From positions 1 through 11,432 of the forward strand of contig JASHZK010000311.1 of NCBI GenBank assembly GCA_030042575.1: a stretch of 11,432 bases of DNA, given 5' to 3'. Source of the stretch: Acidimicrobiales bacterium (lineage in GTDB: Bacteria; Actinomycetota; Acidimicrobiia; Acidimicrobiales; UBA8190). Both the position numbers and the translations under genes were made by a program. The notes under the pieces were generated by a model. The model saw nothing but the letters and a program-made list of their open reading frames with translations. It had not been told where the DNA came from and searched no databases. Shown in pieces: positions 1,121-10,129 of this stretch (position 1 is its first letter; each line of letters opens with the position of its first letter).

Positions 1121-2778
1121 GGCACCTCCTTCGGCCACGCCCGGCCCGAGGCGCCGACGATCTCGCCCAGCACGGGATCGAGCCAAGGCGGAACCTGGGG
1201 ACCTCCGTAGACCACGCTGGTGAGCGGTCTGGGGTGGCTGCGAAGTCCGAGCCAGCCGGCACCCACCACCAGCTCGGCACCGACCAGGGCGCCGGCGCCC
1301 GGGGCGGTGAGCAGATGGGCCACCAGCTCCCCGGCCGGCCGGGCCGCCTCTTTGTCGGTTGCTTCGATGCTCATGGCGAAAGCCGAGACTCGCCCTTCGG
1401 TCGTGGCTCGGGAGACTCGGGCCAGCTGCGCCGACGCCTGGGCCCGGCTGCGACCACCCGCGGTCACGGCGTCGGTGAGCGTCACCAGCCGCAGTGGGCG
1501 CCCGGCGCCCGACGCGTAGTCGGCGGCGGCCCGGGCCCATCCGGCATCGGCGTGGATCTGCTCGATGATCCCCTCGTGCTCGGCCAGCACCTGCTGCCAC
1601 CCGTCGGCCCCGTGACCTGTGGAGGGGCCTCCGGCCCGGGCGACGACGACGGCGTCGAGCGGGCCCACCGATTCCACGACCGAGCGCAGCCGGCTGGCCG
1701 CCTCGGCGAAGCCGCCAGCCACCTCCACGTGGTGGCAGGCAATCGAGCGCGCCTCGAGCACCGCCGCCAGCGAGGAGGACATGGCCGGGCGATCACTGAC
1801 CACCACACAGGAGCGCACCTCTCCGGCCTCGATCTCGCCGTCCGGGGCCTCGAAGACAGGGCCGAAGCGTGGATTTCCCCCACCTTCGCTCGCCTGTTTG
1901 GCTTCGGCCGGGGCGAAGGCACGGGGCACGACCTCGCGGAGGACTCCAGCCAGGGACACGGCATCTTGGCTGCGGACGACTTCGAGCAGGCGCGGCTCAT
2001 CGATGAGAGCCAACTCCGAGCCGCCGGTGAAGAACACCCGGCCGCTGCACCATCCCAGTCGGTCGTCCACGAGATAGGCGCCGATGGGGCCCATGTCGGC
2101 GGGGCCGGGCATCGATCTGAACAGCGAAAGTCCCCCGCCACCGCCCACCCTGCCCTCCTGGCGAGCGCGCTCGACGGCGGCGGCGACCATCCGGGTGGCG
2201 GCAATGGGCGAGATGGCGTTGACGGTCACCCCGGGAGGCACCACACGGCCCAATTGCCAGGTCAAGTTGGCGACAGCCCGTTTGGCGCAGCTGTAGCCCC
2301 CGGCATCGGCCGCTCGCCATCCCGAGCCCGAGGTGACGCCGAGCATGCGACCGTGGCCGGCCGCCGCCATGAGGGGCAGGGCGGCGGCGAGGACGTTGAG
2401 GTAACCGCCCAGGTGCACATGGAGCAAGGCCGACCAGTCTTCCTCGGTGCCTTCGGCGAAGCCGCTCTTACGGGTGATGCCGGCCACGTTGACCACGGCG
2501 TCGAGCCCGCCGAGCTCGTCGGCCAGCTCCTGGAAGAGTGCCCGCACGGCGTCGGCGTCGGTCACCGAGGCCGACGACGCCCGGGCCGAGCCACCGGCGG
2601 CCTCGATGCGACTGGCCGTCGTCTCCGCGTTTTCCGTCAGCCGTTCGGTGCCGTCGACGGTCACCAAGGGGTCGACGGTGACGATGTACCAACCGCGGCG
2701 GGCGAGCTCCTCGGCGATGGCCGCTCCGATCCCGCCCCCGCCGCCGGTCACGACGGCGACCCGCTGCCGCCCGCTCAC
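1117..2778 (-). CDS. Short-chain dehydrogenase/reductase with an extra degenerate C-terminal SDR-like domain
   Basis: 553 residues, about twice the usual SDR length. Residues 1-260 form a complete classical SDR: cofactor loop TGGGGGIG (11-18), NVAG (97-100), active-site Ser in GVTSGSG (150 or 152), YSCAK with Tyr162 and Lys166, and an ISPIAATRM loop after the active site. These enzymes oxidise secondary alcohols or reduce ketones with NAD(P). Residues about 320-510 have a second alternating alpha/beta pattern (SCVVVSDR, LDAVVVARAGG, RLVTLTDA, GAELVVGAG) that looks like another SDR fold but lacks a glycine-rich loop and YxxxK, so it is probably structural. The GTG at 2776-2778 overlaps the TGA of the upstream monooxygenase (GTGA). 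No good Shine-Dalgarno sequence precedes it, so translation probably depends on coupling. Its stop overlaps the next start (ATGA). In this operon it probably forms, or returns, the ketone used by the monooxygenase. Substrate and cofactor preference cannot be read from the sequence. Confidence 0.9.
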   Translation of the reverse strand: MSGRQRVAVVTGGGGGIGAAIAEELARRGWYIVTVDPLVTVDGTERLTENAETTASRIEAAGGSARASSASVTDADAVRALFQELADELGGLDAVVNVAGITRKSGFAEGTEEDWSALLHVHLGGYLNVLAAALPLMAAAGHGRMLGVTSGSGWRAADAGGYSCAKRAVANLTWQLGRVVPPGVTVNAISPIAATRMVAAAVERARQEGRVGGGGGLSLFRSMPGPADMGPIGAYLVDDRLGWCSGRVFFTGGSELALIDEPRLLEVVRSQDAVSLAGVLREVVPRAFAPAEAKQASEGGGNPRFGPVFEAPDGEIEAGEVRSCVVVSDRPAMSSSLAAVLEARSIACHHVEVAGGFAEAASRLRSVVESVGPLDAVVVARAGGPSTGHGADGWQQVLAEHEGIIEQIHADAGWARAAADYASGAGRPLRLVTLTDAVTAGGRSRAQASAQLARVSRATTEGRVSAFAMSIEATDKEAARPAGELVAHLLTAPGAGALVGAELVVGAGWLGLRSHPRPLTSVVYGGPQVPPWLDPVLGEIVGASGRAWPKEVP

Positions 2779-4643
2779 GACGCCGGCGACCGAACCTGGA
2801 GCTCCAACCCGGCGAAGCGGCCGGCTTCGATCCACTGCTCGAGCAGGGTGCGGTAGCCGAACCAGTCCCCCATGCCCCGGCCGTAATTGCCGTTTCGGCC
2901 CGTGATCGCCTCGGGGTGACCTTCGTTGTTGAGGCGGGAAGGGGTGCAGGCCGACATCACACCGCTGGGATCGACCCAGGAGTCCATGATCTTCTGCGTC
3001 CACGCATCTTCCGCCTCGGCGCTCACCTCGAAGACCTCGATCCCCTTGTCTTCCAGCAGCCCCACGGTGCGGCCCACGAACTCGGCTCCCAGTACGGCGA
3101 GCTGCGTGTAATTGACTGTCACCACCGCCTGTTGAGCTGGGGCCGGCATGATGAACATGTTGGGGAAGCCGCGGCTCATGATCCCGAAGAGGGTGGCGGC
3201 GCCCTCCTCCCACTTCTGGGCCAGGGTGATCCCGTGACGACCGACGATCTCATGGCCGACCTTCCGGGAGAGCGGGGTGAGCTCGGGCTCGAAGCCGGTG
3301 CCGTAGATGATGCAGTCGACCTCGTAGGGCCTTCCGCCTACCACCGGGCCCTTCTCGGTGATCCGCTCGATACCGCCCGGGCAGTCGACCAACGTGACCT
3401 TGGGATTGTTGAAGGCGAGCAGGTACTCGTCGTGGAAGCACGGCCTCTTGCACAGGTACCGGTAGTAGGGCTTGAGCATCTCGGCCGTGGCGGGATCGTC
3501 GACCAATTGCTCGACCCGACGACGATGCAGCTCCATGATGTCGTAGTCGATCTCCTCGGCTCTGCGCTGGTAGTCGGCGATCGTCCCGTCCTTCGAACGC
3601 GGGGGATTGTGCACAGCGGCCCAATGGTGGGTCCACCCGTCGTCCACCTCGTCCACCTCGACCGAGCGGCCCAAGATGATGGCCTGGAAGTTGTCCATGC
3701 GCGCCGATTGCCACCCCGGCGCCAGGGTCGTGGCGAAGTCGGGATCGGTGAGCCGGTTCCCCCGTTCACCCACGGCCGACGGCGTGCGTTGGAACACGTA
3801 GAGGTGCTCGGCCGCCTGGGCCAGAGGAGGCACGCACTGAATGCCGGTGGCCCCGGTGCCCACGAAGGCGACGACCTTGTCCGCCAGTTCGGTCAGGGGC
3901 TCGTGTGGCCCGCCCCCGGTGTAGCCGTAGTCCCAACGAGCGGCGTGGAACGAACGCCCCCCGAAGTCCTCCATGCCGGCGATAGCGGGGAGCTTCATGA
4001 GGCTCAGGATCCCGGGGGCGAGCACGTAGTAGCGGCAACTGACCTGGTCCCCCCGGTCGGTGGTGATGAGCCACCGGGCGGCGTCCTCTTTCCATTGGGC
4101 CCGGGTGACGCCGGTGTGGAACAGGGCGTCGTCGACGAGGTCGTAGCGCTCGGCGATCATCTCCAGGCAACGAAGGATCTCCTCGCCGAAGGCGTAGCGA
4201 CGGGCTGGGAGGTACCCCAGCTCTTCGAGCATCGGTATGTAGATGTACGACTCGACGTCGCACATGACACCGGGGTACCGGTTCCAGTACCAGGTACCGC
4301 CGACTCCCCCGGCCTGATCGATGATCCGAATCCGTTCGAGGCCGGCGTTGCGCAGGTGGGCCCCGGCCACCAGCCCGGCCATGCCGCCTCCCACGATGAC
4401 CACGTCGACCTCGTCGGCGACCGGTGGCCGCTCGACGACCGGGGTGAACGGATCGTCGCGGTAGCGGGCGAAGTCGGTGTCGGCCCGCAGGTCGCGGATG
4501 TCGGCCCGGCCGGGGAGCAGCCGCTTGTCCCGCTCAGAGAGATACTTGGCCCGTACCTCTTCCCAGTCGACGCTCACCGAGCCGTTACCGGCCGAGGAGA
4601 CGGTGGGCGGCACAGACGACGACGGTGGACCTTCTTGCGGCAC
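2775..4643 (-). CDS. Type I Baeyer-Villiger flavin monooxygenase
   Basis: 622 residues from the GTG at 4643. It uses FAD, NADPH and O2 to insert oxygen next to a ketone, giving an ester or lactone. Two Rossmann loops are present, GGGMAG (85-90, FAD) and GTGATG (262-267, NADPH). Between them lies the complete fingerprint FxGxxxHxxxW[PD], read as Phe227, Gly229, His233, Trp237 and Asp238. GGTWYWNRYPG (115-125) and CKRPC with Lys399 and Arg400 match the FAD contact and the cofactor/catalytic Lys-Arg pair of characterised enzymes such as PAMO. A C-terminal NNEGHP plus an N-terminal arm of about 75 residues before the first Rossmann strand place it among the longer members (the cyclopentadecanone monooxygenase type is about 600 residues). 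The first 22 residues are low-complexity Ser/Pro/Gly, and a GTG at 4577 would give 600 residues; neither start has a Shine-Dalgarno sequence. A TATAGC box at 4658-4653, 9 bases before the upstream GTG, would fit a leaderless message. First gene of the operon. Confidence 0.95.
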   Translation of the reverse strand: MPQEGPPSSSVPPTVSSAGNGSVSVDWEEVRAKYLSERDKRLLPGRADIRDLRADTDFARYRDDPFTPVVERPPVADEVDVVIVGGGMAGLVAGAHLRNAGLERIRIIDQAGGVGGTWYWNRYPGVMCDVESYIYIPMLEELGYLPARRYAFGEEILRCLEMIAERYDLVDDALFHTGVTRAQWKEDAARWLITTDRGDQVSCRYYVLAPGILSLMKLPAIAGMEDFGGRSFHAARWDYGYTGGGPHEPLTELADKVVAFVGTGATGIQCVPPLAQAAEHLYVFQRTPSAVGERGNRLTDPDFATTLAPGWQSARMDNFQAIILGRSVEVDEVDDGWTHHWAAVHNPPRSKDGTIADYQRRAEEIDYDIMELHRRRVEQLVDDPATAEMLKPYYRYLCKRPCFHDEYLLAFNNPKVTLVDCPGGIERITEKGPVVGGRPYEVDCIIYGTGFEPELTPLSRKVGHEIVGRHGITLAQKWEEGAATLFGIMSRGFPNMFIMPAPAQQAVVTVNYTQLAVLGAEFVGRTVGLLEDKGIEVFEVSAEAEDAWTQKIMDSWVDPSGVMSACTPSRLNNEGHPEAITGRNGNYGRGMGDWFGYRTLLEQWIEAGRFAGLELQVRSPAS

Positions 4644-4698
4644 GCGCTCAACGCTATAGCCCTGCCGTGATCTATGACACCCACGTCAGCAAAAGCCA

Positions 4699-4723
4699 CC
4701 CGGTCACCCCGGTCACCCGGTCA
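4699..4723 (-). repeat. Three direct repeats of TGACCGGG upstream of the monooxygenase operon
   Basis: On the minus strand TGACCGGG occurs at 4723-4716, 4715-4708 and 4706-4699, almost head to tail (periods 8 and 9 bases). The array lies 56-80 bases upstream of the GTG at 4643, in the only sizeable non-coding gap before the operon. Iterated sites just upstream of a promoter commonly bind an activator or repressor. No regulator gene is adjacent, so the protein involved is unknown. The rest of the 4644-4784 gap holds a perfect 12-bp palindrome, GCCGGATCCGGC (4754-4765), and the hairpin at the clpP stop; no gene is seen. Confidence 0.5.
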
Positions 4724-4779
4724 TCCCCGGCCCTGGTCCCCTCCGCCCCCGTAGCCGGATCCGGCGACCGGCCCGGGGA

Positions 4780-4797
4780 CGCCGTCACACGACGGCG
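4780..4797 (-). terminator. Short hairpin spanning the clpP stop codon, weak terminator candidate
   Basis: CGCCGTC (4780-4786) and GACGGCG (4791-4797) form a perfect 7-bp stem with a 4-base loop. The clpP stop (4785-4787) lies inside it. No T-run follows in the minus direction, so it may act as a 3'-end stabiliser or a weak terminator separating clpP from the monooxygenase operon. Confidence 0.3.
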
Positions 4798-5477
4798 CGT
4801 GTTTCCGATTCCCCGGGCGAGGTGAGGGCGACCGTCCGAGGCGGGTCGGCGCCGCCGGCAGCGCCGGCGGCGCACAGTCCCCGGGTGGGCGCGATGATGT
4901 CGTCGACGAGTCCGTAGGACTTGGCCTCTTCGGCGGTCATGAAGAAGTCGCGGTCGATGTCCCGCTCCACCTGCTCCACCGACTGGCCCGAGTGGAAGGC
5001 GATGATCTCGGCCATGCGCCGGGTGGTGGCGAGCACTTCGCGGAGGTGGATCTCCATGTCCCGCGGCGCCCCTCGCGTGCCGGCGGAGCCTTGATGGATC
5101 ATGATCTTGGCGTTGGGCAGGGCGAAGCGTTTGCCGGGAGACCCGCCGCACAGGATCATGGCGGCCGCCGACATACCCATACCCACACAGATGGTGGACA
5201 CGTCGCAGCTCACGTGCTGCATCACGTCGTAGATGGCCATTGCCGCGTAGGACATACCGCCGGGCGAGTTGATGTACAGAGCGATGTCGCGCTCGGGCTC
5301 GTCGGCCGCCAGGTACAGGATCTCGGCCACCAGCAGGTTGGCGATCTGGTCGTCGACCTCCTGGCCGAGGAACACGATGCGCTCCTTGAGCAGCAACGAG
5401 TAGATGTCGAAGGGCCGGTCTCCCCGGGAGGTCTGGTCGAAGACGGTCGGGATCACCGCCGATTGCCCACGAGCCAT
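4785..5477 (-). CDS. clpP: ATP-dependent Clp protease proteolytic subunit, catalytically complete
   Basis: A 230-residue serine peptidase subunit that assembles into heptameric rings and degrades proteins delivered by a Clp ATPase in the cytosol. The N-terminal VIPTVFDQTSRGDRPFDIYSLLLKERIVFLG region is typical of ClpP (given here only as landmarks: IPTVF at 9-13, KERIVFLG at 31-38). The triad is intact: Ser103 in GMGMSAAA, His128 in MIHQG and Asp177 in DRDFFM. INSPGG (69-74), which shapes the substrate groove and oxyanion region, is also present. The nucleophile motif GMGMS departs from the common GxAAS. The family fold ends near residue 198; the last 30 or so residues are a Gly/Ala/Pro/Ser-rich tail not usual in ClpP. 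The ATG at 5475-5477 has a strong GAGGAGGAGGGG ribosome binding site. No clpX or second active clpP is adjacent. Instead it faces an XRE regulator and an inactive ClpP homologue across a palindromic gap, so it is probably an accessory ClpP rather than one of the standard clpP1P2 pair. Confidence 0.95.
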   Translation of the reverse strand: MARGQSAVIPTVFDQTSRGDRPFDIYSLLLKERIVFLGQEVDDQIANLLVAEILYLAADEPERDIALYINSPGGMSYAAMAIYDVMQHVSCDVSTICVGMGMSAAAMILCGGSPGKRFALPNAKIMIHQGSAGTRGAPRDMEIHLREVLATTRRMAEIIAFHSGQSVEQVERDIDRDFFMTAEEAKSYGLVDDIIAPTRGLCAAGAAGGADPPRTVALTSPGESETRAVV

Positions 5478-5503
5478 GGCCCCTCCTCCTCACCTCCGAG
5501 AGC

Positions 5504-5533
5504 TTGTCTGCGATCTCGAATATGAGATATCAT
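5504..5533 (+). promoter_or_regulatory. Candidate sigma70-type promoter for the XRE/ClpR-like genes
   Basis: TTGTCT (5504-5509) and TATCAT (5528-5533) are separated by 18 bases and match the vegetative consensus at 4/6 and 5/6 positions. Transcription would begin near 5540, between clpP and the XRE gene. The -10 box lies inside the palindrome at 5515-5540, so a protein bound there would block it. Confidence 0.4.
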
Positions 5534-5540
5534 ACTCGAG
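5515..5540. promoter_or_regulatory. 26-bp AT-rich imperfect palindrome, candidate operator of the divergent Clp locus
   Basis: The half-sites CTCGAATATGAGA (5515-5527) and TATCATACTCGAG (5528-5540) are inverted complements at 11 of 13 positions (mismatches at pairs 5520/5535 and 5526/5529). It is the most AT-rich patch in the surrounding GC-rich sequence. It lies between the divergent start codons, 38 bases upstream of the clpP ATG and 32 bases upstream of the XRE GTG, and covers the -10 box of the plus-strand promoter. Autoregulation by the adjacent XRE protein, with joint control of clpP, is the natural inference. Confidence 0.55.
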
Positions 5541-5571
5541 GTATGGAGGTTCACGCCTCGAGGACGCGGCG

Positions 5572-5838
5572 GTGGTGAACGAGCGTCGTCACGAGCCGCT
5601 GCTCCCCGGCTTCAAGGAGCTGGCCGAGCGCCGGCGGGCCCTGGCCGAAGATCTGGTGAGCCGGCGACTGGCGCTGGGACTGTCGCAAACGGAAGTGGCC
5701 GCCAGGATGGGGACCTCGCAGTCGGCGGTGGCCAGGGTGGAGGCCGGCCAGTCCGATGTCCGGCTCTCGACCCTGGAGCGCTATGCAGCCGCCGTCGGCT
5801 ACGTCATCGACTGGCGGTTGCAGGGCCGTGGCCGCTGA
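5572..5838 (+). CDS. XRE-family helix-turn-helix DNA-binding protein
   Basis: 88 residues from GTG 5572 (or 87 from GTG 5575). The core, residues about 28-80, is a Cro/C1-type fold: LVSRRLALGLSQTEVAARMG (helices 1-2), then TSQSAVARVEAGQ as the recognition helix region, then LSTLERYAAAVGY and a short C-terminal strand VIDWRLQ. The preceding 25 residues are charged and helical (FKELAERRRALAED) and could mediate dimerisation. There is no sensor or enzyme domain. An AGGA at 5561-5564 gives a 7-base spacing to the first GTG. The frame is open further left to an ATG at 5404, but that would run through the clpP start, the promoter and the palindrome, so it is rejected. The gene overlaps the following ClpR-like gene by 11 bases. 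Binding the adjacent palindrome as autoregulator and clpP regulator is inferred from position. An antitoxin role is possible, but no toxin is adjacent. Confidence 0.83.
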   Translation: MVNERRHEPLLPGFKELAERRRALAEDLVSRRLALGLSQTEVAARMGTSQSAVARVEAGQSDVRLSTLERYAAAVGYVIDWRLQGRGR

Positions 5839-6388
5839 CGATCCCCACCGCCTCGGGCTGGTCCCGCTGGCCGACACCGTGGCCGGCGCCCTCCTCCGTC
5901 GGCGCGTCCTCGTGGTGCACGGAGCCCTCGACCACGACCGGGCGTCGGAGGTCTCGGCCACCCTCATGACCCTCGACGCCCTGGGCGACGAGCACGTCGA
6001 GCTGCAGATGAGCTCAGCTGACGGACCTGTCGACGCCGGCTTGGTGGTGGCCGACGTCATCGACGTGCTCGGGGTACCGGTGCACACCGTCGGCCTGGGC
6101 TTGCTCTCGGGCGGCGCCGTCGTCGTGCTGGCCTCGGGCAGCCACAGGGTGCTGTTCAAACACGCCCGGTTGCATCTGCGCCAACCGGACATGACCGCCT
6201 CCGGGCGCGCCATCGACATCGAGCGCACCATGGCCGAGCAGGTCTCCCGGCGAGACGCCTTCTACGGGCAGCTGGCCCGCCGCACCGGCCGCAGCCGGGG
6301 CGAGATCGAGCTCGAATGGGGCGGCGGCCGCTTCCTGGGGGCGGAGGACGCCGTGACCCTGGGATACGCCGATCACGTCCGGGGCTAG
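5828..6388 (+). CDS. ClpP-fold protein lacking the catalytic triad (ClpR-like)
   Basis: 186 residues from GTG 5828. The order of ClpP landmarks is kept: VLVVHGALDHDRASEV (27-42, like IVFLGQEVDDQIAN), ELQMSSADG (58-66, like ALYINSPGG), VHTVGLGLLSGGAVVVLASG (85-104), HARLHLRQ (112-119, like NAKIMIHQ) and GGRFLGAEDAVTLGYADHV (166-184, like DFFMTAEEAKSYGLVDDI). The catalytic positions are replaced. Without gaps the nucleophile position is Gly95 (a Ser lies one residue earlier), the His is Arg118 and the Asp is Gly167. It should therefore not be a peptidase. Cyanobacterial and plastid ClpR subunits are inactive in the same way and co-assemble with ClpP, so mixing with the divergently encoded ClpP is plausible. 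An ATG at 5756 in the same frame would give 210 residues but lies deep inside the XRE gene. Its TAG shares CTAG with the stop of the convergent amidotransferase. No signal peptide is seen. Confidence 0.8.
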   Translation: MAADDPHRLGLVPLADTVAGALLRRRVLVVHGALDHDRASEVSATLMTLDALGDEHVELQMSSADGPVDAGLVVADVIDVLGVPVHTVGLGLLSGGAVVVLASGSHRVLFKHARLHLRQPDMTASGRAIDIERTMAEQVSRRDAFYGQLARRTGRSRGEIELEWGGGRFLGAEDAVTLGYADHVRG

Positions 6389-7101
6389 CCGGCGCCGTCG
6401 CCCACGATGGCGGCGAAGCGATCCAGCACCGTGCGACCGGTCGGAGCCAGGGCGGCCAGGACCTTGGCGGCCGGGCCCTCGATGGCCCGGCGGGGCACGC
6501 CCCTGGCGGCGGCGGCATCACCGAGATCGGTCAGAAAGGCGGTCACGGCCTGGGCGTCCACTTCCAGATGGAACTGCAGCCCCCAGGCCCGGGCACCGAA
6601 GCGAAAAGCCTGGTTGGCGTACTGCTCGCTCGAGGCCAGGTGTACGGCGCCGGCGGGCAGATCGAAGGTGTCGCCGTGCCAGTGCAGCACGGTCAGGGGG
6701 GAGACCACACCTCGGAACAGCGGGTCGGCGGCGGTGTTGGCCGAGAGGGCAATCGGTTTCCAGCCGATCTCGACACCCTGTCGTCCGGGATACACCGCGG
6801 CGCCGGCGGCGGCCGCCAGGAGCTGGGCGCCCAGACAGATGCCGAGGATGGGCACCTGGCCATCGAGGGCCCCTCGCAGCATGGCCAACTCGGAGCGACG
6901 AGAAGGGAAACCCTCATCGGTGGTGGCCGACATGGAGCCACCCATGACGACCACGGCGTCGTAGCCACCGACCTCGGGGGGAACGGCGTCACCGGCGTAC
7001 ACCCGGCACACGTCGAGCTCGACGTGGTGTCGCTCGAGCGCCTCGGCAACCAGATAGGCCTTCTCGGGCTCGAGGTGCTGGACGACCAGGCACCTGGTCA
7101 T
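6385..7101 (-). CDS. Class I glutamine amidotransferase, stand-alone (GMP-synthase-like domain)
   Basis: 238 residues, cytosolic. The triad of the family is visible: Cys89 in GICLGAQLLA, His178 and Glu180 in GLQFHLEV. The oxyanion region VVMGGSMSA (51-59) and the LHWHGDTFDLPAGAVHLASS segment (starting at 139) place it with COG0518 domains related to the amidotransferase half of GMP synthase. Such domains release ammonia from glutamine for a synthetase partner, or act on gamma-glutamyl compounds. No synthetase domain or partner gene is adjacent, so the acceptor is unknown. The ATG at 7099-7101 has AGGTG 8 bases upstream. The start is 15 bases after the stop of the 67-residue gene, which suggests co-transcription. 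The last 50 or so residues form an alanine-rich helical tail beyond the core. The stop overlaps tail to tail with that of the ClpR-like gene. Confidence 0.9.
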   Translation of the reverse strand: MTRCLVVQHLEPEKAYLVAEALERHHVELDVCRVYAGDAVPPEVGGYDAVVVMGGSMSATTDEGFPSRRSELAMLRGALDGQVPILGICLGAQLLAAAAGAAVYPGRQGVEIGWKPIALSANTAADPLFRGVVSPLTVLHWHGDTFDLPAGAVHLASSEQYANQAFRFGARAWGLQFHLEVDAQAVTAFLTDLGDAAAARGVPRRAIEGPAAKVLAALAPTGRTVLDRFAAIVGDGAG

Positions 7102-7360: not shown

Positions 7361-10129
7361 TCAGGCGACTTGACGTCCCGCCTTGGGCGCCACCGCCGGT
7401 CCCGCCGGCGGAGCACCGCCCTGCAGGTAGTTGGAAACAGCCAGCATCTCGGTGAGATCGTCGGCGGGCATGGGTTTGGCGAAGTAGAACCCCTGCACGG
7501 TCGTGCAGCCGATGGACTGAAGGTGGTGGAGCTGCTCTTTGGTCTCGACCCCCTCGATCACGGTGGTGATGCCAATGACACTGGACAGGTTCACCACGGC
7601 CGAGACGATGGCCGACTTCACCGGGTCGATCTCGACTCGTTCCACGAAGCTGCGGTCGACCTTGACCACGTCCACCGGGAAGTTGGCCAAGTATCCCAAA
7701 GCCGAATAACCGGTGCCGAAGTCGTCGATCGACACCTTGACCCCGAGACGCTTGAGCCGGGTGAGGATCTCGATGGTCCGCTCGGCGTCCTCCATGGCCA
7801 GGCTCTCGGTGATCTCCAGGCTGATCTGAGCCGGATCCACCTGGGTACGAACCAGCACCTCCTCGATGTCCTCCACCAGGCCCTTTTGCTGGAACTGCCG
7901 GGCCGACAGGTTGACGGCCACCGTGAGCGGGAGGCGCAAGCGCTCACGCCACTGCCGGGCCTGGACACAGGCCTGTTCCAGCACGACCCGGCCCAAGGGC
8001 AGGATCATCCCGGTGTCCTCGGCCAGGCCGATGAAATGCGACGGCGCCAACAGCCCGCGGTTCGGGTGCTGCCAGCGCACCAGGGCCTCGGCCCCTGTCA
8101 CCCTGCCGTCGGCGATGGAGACCACGGGCTGGAAGTACACGACCAACTCGTCGCGCTCGAGCGCTTTGCGCAGGGCCGACTCGAGGTCGATGCGCTCAGC
8201 CGAACGGGTACCCATGGCCTCGACGTCGAAGACCTCGAAGTTTCCGCCCCGGCCCTTGGCCTTGGCCTGGTACATGGCCACGTCGGCGTCGTGGAGGACG
8301 TCGTCGCGCGTCTTGTCGGAATCGGTCAGGGCGATGCCGATGCTGACTGTGGCCACCACCTCGTGCCCACCGGGGAGCACGATGGGTTCCTGCATGCGGT
8401 CGAGGATGCGCTGGGCGCAGGCAACCGAGTCTTCGGGGCTGGCGACGTTCTCGAGCAACAGGGTGAATTCGTCTCCGCCGAACCGGGCCAACATGTCGCC
8501 GGGGCGCACGGCCGACTTCAGGCGCTCGGCTATGGCTATCAGCAACTGGTCACCCGAGTGGTGGCCGAGGCTGTCGTTGACGATTTTGAAACGGTCCACG
8601 TCGGCGAAGAGCACGGCGTGCTGTTCGTCACTGCGTTGCGAGCGACGTAGAGCATGGTCGAGGTGATCCAGGAACAGCCGCCGGTTGGGCAGCCCGGTCA
8701 GCGCGTCGTGGAAGGCGTGGCGGGCCAGCTGCTCCTCGAACTGCTTGCGATCGGTGATGTCCCGGAAGACGAGCACGGCGCCGGTAGCGGCACCGTCGTT
8801 CATGATGGGGGACACGGTGAAGGTGACGTGGAAGCTCGAACCGTCGGCCCGGTTGAAGGTGGTGTCGTAGTTGGTGACGGAGTCGAGCTTGGCCATGGCC
8901 CGCACGGCCGGGGCCAGGATGAAGCTCGGTGCCTGAAGGCCGAAGTCGAGGCCGGCCTCGAGCTGATGGCCTTGGAGCTCCGGCGTCTGTTGCCAGCCGA
9001 GCATGCGCAGAGCCGCCGGGTTCACGAAGGTGACCTGGCCCGAGCGGTCGACGGCGCACACCCCTTCGCCCAGGCTCGAGGTGATGGCCGACAGCCGCTC
9101 GCGTTGGTGCCGGCCCTCCTGGTACAACGCCGCATTGGTGAGGGCCGTGGCCCCCACCGCGGCCAGGGCATCGAGCAGAGCCTGGTCGGCACGGTCGAAG
9201 GCGAAGCCACCGTGGCGGCCGGAGACCCCCAGCACCAGCGGCTCATCGGTGAGGGGCAGCGGGGACTGCAGCGCTCCGTTCGCCTCACCGGGTCGGGCCA
9301 AGGTGGCGTCGCTGCAGTGCAGCAACTCCCGAGCCGAGGCCACGATGGCGTCGGTGGTCTGCTCGGCCCCCATCGATCTGTTGATGTCGAGCGTCGAGTC
9401 GAACAGGCCCAGCAACCGGGCCCGGTCTCGGCGGGCGTCGAAGTGGCCGGCGACCACCCGTCGGAGGATCACCAGTGGCAGCACGGCCAGGACGAGTGCC
9501 CAGGGAAAGGCCGAGATCACGAGTGCGGTGGGCACGGCCAGGGTGAGGCAACCTCCGGCCACCAGCAAGACCACGTCCATGCCGTCGAGCACCGACGTGC
9601 GCAGCGAGGTCCCCAGGGCCACGGTGAGGACCGCCATGGCCAGGTTGTCGACCACGAAGAAGACGACGACCGCCGCCAGGGCGCCGACGACGTCGGTGGG
9701 GGTGACGGAGCCGTGGTGGGTGATGATCAGCCCGCCCACCGAAGCTCCCGCCCATATCGAGGCGGTGCCCTTTCCCCAGTTGAAAGCCACCCGGGAGGGG
9801 GCCATCCCCCGCACCAACATGCCCACGAGGAGCACGGCGGCCGTGCAGGCGACGACCACGGCGGGGGGGAAGAGGAGGAGCAGGACCACGTAGAAGCCCT
9901 CGTCGACGAGGCAGTGCAGAGCTTGGTCCCCCCGGTACATGCGCAGGGGCCAGATCCAGGTGGCCAGCCACAGGGCCACGAGGAGCGCCACCGTGGCCAA
10001 GGAGGTGACAGAGGGCGACCAGTGCGTGAGCTGCCAACCGGCAACGGCGCCAGCCACGATCCCAGCCGTGGTGACGGTGGCGATGACGCCCTTCACCCGC
10101 CAGGGCAGTCTCACTGCAGCGACCCCCAT
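7361..10129 (-). CDS. Membrane-anchored GAF-PAS-GGDEF-EAL cyclic di-GMP enzyme
   Basis: 922 residues. The N-terminal part (about 14-226) has roughly seven hydrophobic segments and is a likely membrane sensor of unassigned type. A GAF-like domain follows (about 235-338, ending LLDALAAVGATALTNAALYQE with helix 317-337), then PAS (about 343-460, with GEGVCAVDRSGQVTFVNPAA and VFRDITDRK), GGDEF (about 468-635) and EAL (about 645-895). The cyclase motif RFGGDEF (549-555) is intact, with the inhibitory RxxD site (Arg542 to Asp545) at the standard distance. The phosphodiesterase motifs EAL (681-683), NLSARQF, DDFGTGYS (802-809), KVDRSF and EGVET are also intact, so both synthesis and breakdown of cyclic di-GMP are possible, presumably switched by the sensors. 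The ATG at 10127-10129 has only a weak upstream site; GTG 10114 is an alternative, 15 bases downstream and preceded by GGGGG. A 237-base gap with a hairpin and a candidate promoter lies upstream. Confidence 0.96.
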   Translation of the reverse strand: MGVAAVRLPWRVKGVIATVTTAGIVAGAVAGWQLTHWSPSVTSLATVALLVALWLATWIWPLRMYRGDQALHCLVDEGFYVVLLLLFPPAVVVACTAAVLLVGMLVRGMAPSRVAFNWGKGTASIWAGASVGGLIITHHGSVTPTDVVGALAAVVVFFVVDNLAMAVLTVALGTSLRTSVLDGMDVVLLVAGGCLTLAVPTALVISAFPWALVLAVLPLVILRRVVAGHFDARRDRARLLGLFDSTLDINRSMGAEQTTDAIVASARELLHCSDATLARPGEANGALQSPLPLTDEPLVLGVSGRHGGFAFDRADQALLDALAAVGATALTNAALYQEGRHQRERLSAITSSLGEGVCAVDRSGQVTFVNPAALRMLGWQQTPELQGHQLEAGLDFGLQAPSFILAPAVRAMAKLDSVTNYDTTFNRADGSSFHVTFTVSPIMNDGAATGAVLVFRDITDRKQFEEQLARHAFHDALTGLPNRRLFLDHLDHALRRSQRSDEQHAVLFADVDRFKIVNDSLGHHSGDQLLIAIAERLKSAVRPGDMLARFGGDEFTLLLENVASPEDSVACAQRILDRMQEPIVLPGGHEVVATVSIGIALTDSDKTRDDVLHDADVAMYQAKAKGRGGNFEVFDVEAMGTRSAERIDLESALRKALERDELVVYFQPVVSIADGRVTGAEALVRWQHPNRGLLAPSHFIGLAEDTGMILPLGRVVLEQACVQARQWRERLRLPLTVAVNLSARQFQQKGLVEDIEEVLVRTQVDPAQISLEITESLAMEDAERTIEILTRLKRLGVKVSIDDFGTGYSALGYLANFPVDVVKVDRSFVERVEIDPVKSAIVSAVVNLSSVIGITTVIEGVETKEQLHHLQSIGCTTVQGFYFAKPMPADDLTEMLAVSNYLQGGAPPAGPAVAPKAGRQVA

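Follow-up and report, generated by a model that had tools for sequence, protein, structure and literature searches.

A conserved Acidimicrobiales unit of an accessory ClpP, an XRE-type regulator and a ClpP homologue without catalytic triad

Introduction

For the cyanobacterial and plastid type a Clp core of ClpP3 and ClpR is described, the latter being a subunit without a catalytic triad (PMC7966870). In Streptomyces the accessory ClpP3-ClpP4 is described as standing under PopR and ClpP1-ClpP2 under ClgR, and the regulator of the accessory ClpPs is reported in the same account to be an activator which is itself degraded by ClpP1P2 (PMC9765437). Mycobacterial ClpP1P2 is presented as a hetero-oligomer in which the ATPase docks on one ring only (PMC4416901).

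The window analysed here is a stretch of 11,432 nucleotides which makes up one complete contig of an Acidimicrobiales assembly (2.39 Mb, 58.9% complete), and it contains a ClpP gene, an XRE regulator gene and a gene for a ClpP homologue that lacks the catalytic triad. The last is called ClpR for its missing features, with no claim to membership of the ClpR lineage. Like the ClpR of cyanobacteria, plastids and apicoplasts it combines a ClpP fold and a lost triad with a position beside an active ClpP, and the cyanobacterial-type ClpR would by analogy be its nearest counterpart in action. The nearest regulated accessory ClpP is the Streptomyces ClpP3-ClpP4 under PopR, which likewise consists of actinobacterial accessory ClpP genes with a dedicated regulator, and one feature of PopR/ClgR-type control of clpP3-clpP4, a regulator of the XRE type whose gene accompanies an accessory clpP, is present in the unit. 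It differs from the Streptomyces system in an operator position that fits repression, in its divergent layout and in having one dead subunit. Mycobacterial ClpP1P2 may serve by analogy as a model for a ring that does not dock, although both of its partners have peptidase residues, whereas one subunit of the present unit has none and the genes are divergent. No description of an XRE-ClpR-ClpP unit was found among the matches listed from the open-licence literature.

Organisation of the locus

The clpP gene (4785..5477, minus strand) matches the Pfam family CLP_protease with 241.6 bits, the curated cut-off used for both Clp genes being 20.2 bits. Its residues S103, H128 and D177 correspond to the triad S97, H122 and D171 of E. 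coli ClpP, a numbering which rules out D173 of the same protein as the catalytic Asp. The triad-complete ClpP that had been annotated on the minus strand is thus present, and by domain and triad the product is predicted to be a ClpP peptidase subunit; the triad is complete in all 50 ClpP rows of the alignment. The structure model of this ClpP is weak (pLDDT 77.4) and no result rests on it. Across a gap of 94 bases (5478-5571) lies the gene of a Cro/C1-type HTH regulator of the XRE family (5572..5838, plus strand; HTH_3, 46.1 bits), which is likely to start at GTG 5572 or 5575, has 88 residues when read from GTG 5572 and ends with the stop codon 5836-5838. The clpR-like gene (5828..6388, plus strand; CLP_protease, 82.4 bits) starts at GTG 5828. 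The initial annotation had described an HTH gene overlapping by 11 bases a ClpP-fold gene without triad residues, and both points were confirmed: the overlap spans 5828-5838, and the three triad positions hold G, R and G.

The flanking genes encode an FAD/NAD(P)-binding oxidoreductase (2775-4643, minus strand; Pfam), a class-I glutamine amidotransferase (6385-7101, minus strand; Pfam) and a long GGDEF/EAL-like protein (7361-10129, minus strand) named by eye from the sequence. None of these neighbours is conserved with the three-gene unit in flanks of about 6 kb at 57 loci. Over the same distance, if an antisense reading of ClpP (25 loci) is set aside, no other gene family is common to more than 7 of the 57, in a clustering so coarse that the unit's own cluster absorbed some spurious frames.

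Conservation of the unit and status of its ClpP

A scan of the genome collection with the ClpP alignment confirmed 424 relatives, of which the best 80 were taken; judged by record title, the relatives belong mostly to Acidimicrobiales. At 53 of these 80 ClpP-selected loci all three genes are present, with XRE and ClpR sharing a strand and ClpP lying opposite to them, a count which includes the near-copies L035/L036, L056/L061 and L077/L079. The remaining 27 comprise one locus that lacks XRE only (L043), four that are truncated by contig ends (L046, L050, L088 and probably L074), six with neither XRE nor ClpR (L090-L093, L095 and L097) and other ClpPs (L098-L113). In the near-identical L077 and L079 about 2.1 kb separate XRE from ClpP.

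Since ClpP was the criterion of this first selection, whole genomes were also selected in the opposite direction, by ClpR. Among 397 Acidimicrobiales genomes, 34 have ClpR at E <= 1e-40, spread over 25 of 203 genera, so that the unit is patchy within the order. Loci were recovered for 30 of the 34 genomes, some of them common to both selections, and 28 of the 30 hold all three genes; of the other two, L193 is truncated by a contig end and L194 lacks XRE only, and ClpR thus adjoins the unit's ClpP in 29 of 30. In genome G170 the unit is apparently split across two contig ends. One further genome of the 34, G263, is represented by L009 (G263:C200:741-1265), where a triad-less ClpR-like gene has neither XRE nor the unit's ClpP within its 2.8 kb, and no XRE relative was found in G263 at 1e-8. 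A lack of neighbourhood in relatives was the first of the conditions by which the initial annotation would have had its idea refuted, and the idea survived both selections: judging from gene order, the three genes are inherited together as a conserved unit. The distances between the proteins are correlated (Mantel; ClpR-ClpP 0.65, ClpR-XRE 0.59, ClpP-XRE 0.55) and their nearest neighbours agree in 30/50, 32/50 and 30/50 cases, respectively. The Mantel correlations were rejected as evidence of contact, as they show shared inheritance and do not single out ClpP.

The unit also occurs in the named strain Acidiferrimicrobium sp. IK (L057), the record of which carries no label as a metagenome-assembled genome, and in records labelled Dormiibacterota (L084, L085) and Acidobacteriota (L061). 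The proteins of L061 are 96-100% identical to those of L056, which makes misbinning likely in that case, and horizontal transfer is possible for L084 and L085.

In a tree the ClpP of the unit forms a clade of its own, to which neither of the two housekeeping ClpPs in these genomes belongs. Three relatives were checked (G244, G233 and G173), and in each the two housekeeping ClpP genes lie on separate contigs, with clpX adjoining one of them. The accessory status proposed for the window's ClpP is borne out by the separate clade and by these additional genes; the tandem clpP1-clpP2 pair next to clpX that had been expected of actinobacteria does not exist in the three relatives. At residue 5, in the axial loop of ClpP, the XRE-ClpR group has Thr (58 of 59 rows), and the other two groups have Met (6/6 and 15/15). 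A His at position 82 of ClpP was discarded as a mark of pairing with ClpR, being present also in five of six ClpR-less loci and, at L113, in two ClpPs of Pseudanabaena.

The ClpR-like protein

All 54 ClpR members match PF00574. The AlphaFold2 model of the window's ClpR is confident (pLDDT 92.9), and the 50 matches listed for it in the PDB are all ClpPs, with TM scores of 0.84-0.91 by query length. Residues were counted in 54 ClpR and 50 ClpP rows in E. coli ClpP numbering. All three triad residues are gone in 53 of the 54 ClpR rows and the remaining row keeps the Asp only: the position of S97 holds Gly (53/54) or Thr (1/54), His is found in none of the 54 at position 122, and at position 171 there are 45 rows with Gly and one with Asp. 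Beyond the triad, R170 is retained in 6/54 and Y62 in 8/54 ClpR rows against 50/50 ClpP rows for both, and Pro4 of the axial loop is present in 2/54 (51 rows being gapped there) against 50/50. The docking patch is partly kept, with positions 23, 24, 28, 48 and 82 hydrophobic in at least 80% of ClpR rows; F112, however, is hydrophobic in 33% of ClpR versus 98% of ClpP rows, and L114 in 30% versus 86%. On the handle helix, positions 137 and 142 have turned polar in ClpR, being hydrophobic in 2% and 6% of its rows compared with 100% and 98% of ClpP rows. Together with the loss of R170, the polar handle makes the usual ring stacking of ClpR doubtful.

ClpR diverges faster than ClpP, with a median pairwise identity of 39% versus 73%. 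Among the pairs that give a finite dN/dS, the 20 closest, which overlap with one another, have values between 0.08 and 0.31, and these indicate purifying selection on a protein that is not decaying; in 19 of the same 20 pairs ClpP has the lower ratio. The ClpR frames are open across more than 50 loci. At L041 alone the ClpR frame is broken (3958-5571, minus strand).

In a quick tree with long branches all ClpR rows group in a single clade (support 100), outside of which the Pseudanabaena sequences fall (support 100). The Pseudanabaena sequence of L113, which we take to be a ClpR, shares with the unit's ClpR a Gly at the position of Ser97, yet this one cyanobacterial sequence that was compared keeps His122, Y62, L114, L189, the hydrophobic handle residues and R170, which are mostly lost in the unit's ClpR. 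No further triad-less relatives were found in the phylum among the best 29 non-window loci listed, all of which have full triads. The top ClpR-profile score outside the window's genome, among the phylum matches listed, belongs to L148 (G404, another actinobacterium), where two triad-complete ClpP genes lie adjacent on the same strand.

The XRE regulator and its predicted operator

The XRE family has a conserved N-terminal arm, ERRHEPVFPGF. Against the NCBIfam model of the HipB/Y4mF antitoxin the window's gene scores 38.6 bits, below the cut-off of 71.65; among the anti-phage defence families of PADLOC there is none for either Clp protein, and the XRE gene matches HTH-bearing models only. An in-frame ClpR start lies within -20 to +5 bases of the XRE stop at 49 of 53 loci.

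The gap between clpP and XRE had initially been described as palindromic. The 26-base palindrome CTCGAATATGAGATATCATACTCGAG, in which 22 of 26 positions match the reverse complement, scores 14 where the best of 20 shuffles of that region reaches 16, and by itself is no better than chance. What stands is a conserved predicted operator, which in the window reads GATCTC-N6-GAGATA (GATCTCGAATATGAGATA, 5512..5529, assigned to no strand) and agrees with TATCTC-N6-GAGATA, a motif also present in relatives, at 11 of 12 bases. This motif was tested on 52 XRE-ClpP gaps (51 loci and the window) against dinucleotide-preserving shuffles. It occurs at at least 11/12 bases in 40 gaps versus 0.04% of shuffles, and at at least 10/12 bases in 48 gaps versus 0.6%, well beyond chance in a test that is partly circular because the motif was derived from the same gaps. 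At least 11/12 bases are also matched in 22 of the 28 ClpR-selected loci, a set which overlaps with the ClpP-selected one. Three loci truncated by contig ends still have the operator (10-12/12), and the six that have neither XRE nor ClpR reach 7-9/12 at best. Genome-wide, sites with at most one mismatch number one in G244, inside the unit, two each in G000 and G173, one of them in the unit, and none in G233, where the unit's own site matches at 10/12; a reversed control pattern is found once in G233, once in G173 and nowhere in G244 or G000.

A candidate promoter of the XRE-clpR operon, TTGTCT - 18 - TATCAT (5504..5533, plus strand), was found by a consensus scan, in which one such element was found against 0.1 expected in shuffles, a figure that by itself is no proof of function. 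The window's operator lies between the -35-like and -10-like elements of the operon, a position that fits repression.

A natural experiment is offered by genome G728 (L194, also recorded as L043), which has no XRE between ClpP and ClpR. The gap between these two genes, about 65 bases by profile edges, has a perfect operator, and the closest XRE relative, with full family score, is encoded on another contig (C25) with no adjoining Clp gene; a perfect operator precedes it by 5 or 11 bases, according to which start codon is used. These are the sole sites with at most one mismatch in 4.6 Mb, where the reversed control finds one. Barring misbinning of the XRE contig, which is possible as G728 is a metagenome-type assembly, the regulator appears to have moved and retained an operator, and ClpP and ClpR to have stayed together. 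Such an arrangement implies that XRE probably controls both divergent promoters, and it favours ClpP as the likelier partner of the dead subunit. The self-regulation suggested at the outset agrees with the operator conserved between XRE and ClpP (48/52 gaps) and with the separate operator of the XRE gene in G728.

Related ClpPs with an ArsR-AHSA1 operon

An ArsR-like gene is divergent from ClpP in 20 of a set of 22 ClpP-selected loci (L090-L093, L095 and L097-L113), namely L090-L093, L095, L097-L099 and L101-L112, and a gene of the AHSA1/SRPBCC type was detected between the two (E <= 0.01) in 14 of these 20. Pfam assigns AHSA1 to 4/4 proteins tested, and the ArsR-type HTH families HTH_20 and HTH_5 to 4/4 and 3/4, respectively. 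These loci, of the Thermoleophilia type and from six Acidimicrobiaceae loci, share with the unit the ClpP clade (support 100/95) and a divergent regulator operon, and they differ in that regulator and partner belong to unrelated families. The six Acidimicrobiaceae loci have a palindrome of their own, TGCAACTAATTGATTGCA, which they match at 14-18 of 18 bases. In the best tree these six fall inside the XRE-ClpR group, which requires two changes, but a single XRE-ClpR clade is not rejected by the AU test (p 0.371), and it is for this reason not claimed that XRE-ClpR reverted or was swapped to AHSA1-ArsR at least twice. The exchange of the two pairs at the same place suggests that the accessory ClpP needs a private switch.

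Proposed role of the unit

The reading towards which the evidence leans is that of a self-regulated accessory Clp unit, in which the dead ClpR would assemble with the neighbouring ClpP and lower or polarise its activity. Co-inheritance of the unit and the location of the operator between divergent promoters point to XRE as setting the output of ClpP, XRE and ClpR from that site, and its release would raise ClpP together with its attenuator. We infer that ClpP and ClpR form a complex, or mixed rings. The pocket in which the ATPase docks is split residue by residue between neighbouring ClpP subunits. Where ClpR makes up a ring or occupies a place in one, the active site would be missing, an axial loop could not be recognised and the pocket for the LGF/IGF loop of the ATPase would be eroded, for which reason it would be expected to lower or polarise ClpP activity. 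The changes in the docking patch and the loss of the axial loop fit an inactive subunit that tunes ATPase docking, but given the polar handle and the missing R170, ClpR is unlikely to stack in a double ring as an ordinary ClpP-like partner would. As a ring or ring position with no recognisable N-loop, an eroded patch and no triad would be one that ATPases could not use, an attenuator or one-sided cap is favoured; ClpR may cap one face of the particle or, alternatively, titrate ClpP into assemblies unusable by the ATPases. Several observations weigh on the other side of this reading, namely the altered handle and R170 positions, the close coupling of the XRE and ClpR genes, distance correlations in which ClpP does not stand out, the orphan ClpR-like gene of G263 and the patchy distribution of the unit.

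ClpR could instead be a co-regulator of XRE. The two would then bind DNA as a complex, and ClpR, a former protease fold, would release the repressor on sensing a ligand or peptide, with ClpP as a mere target gene. The tight coupling of the XRE and ClpR genes (49/53) would also suit such a complex, as would their correlated distances (0.59) and the related loci with ArsR and AHSA1/SRPBCC (14/20), where a regulator is again found with a non-protease partner. In G728, however, XRE lies away from ClpR, and ClpP and ClpR are together round an operator; even allowing for a complex formed in trans, a co-regulator role is considered unlikely. It is harder still to believe that ClpR is not paired with its neighbour and joins the housekeeping ClpPs, or forms a ring of its own as a docking or storage scaffold. 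G244, G233 and G173 do have two housekeeping ClpPs each, and the orphan ClpR-like gene of G263 has no neighbouring ClpP of the unit's clade, but ClpR stands beside the unit's ClpP in all but one of the 30 ClpR-selected loci and the exception is truncated by a contig end.

That ClpR is a decaying, functionless duplicate would accord with the loss of all catalytic residues, with its low median identity compared with ClpP and with the broken frame at L041. The dN/dS of 0.08-0.31 in 20 close pairs, the open frames at more than 50 loci and the confident AlphaFold2 model run counter to decay and render it very improbable.

Implications

On the preferred reading of a self-regulated accessory unit, a broader and more tentative proposal can be made. 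An actinobacterial lineage may have evolved its own, more extreme ClpR, without catalysis, axial loop, docking patch or ring-stacking residues, in which one operator wires the dead subunit to a ClpP whose antagonist or cap it would be, and this wiring may be a swappable cassette, with ArsR-AHSA1 in the same position. Why some organisms have dead subunits in a Clp core is difficult to investigate in plastids because of the many types of subunit that are mixed there. The unit described here is minimal, with a single active and a single dead subunit, one regulator and one operator, and it is present in a named strain. If the proposal is true, a ClpR that has lost both docking and catalysis would make it possible to tell the effect of the number of active sites from that of ATPase docking.
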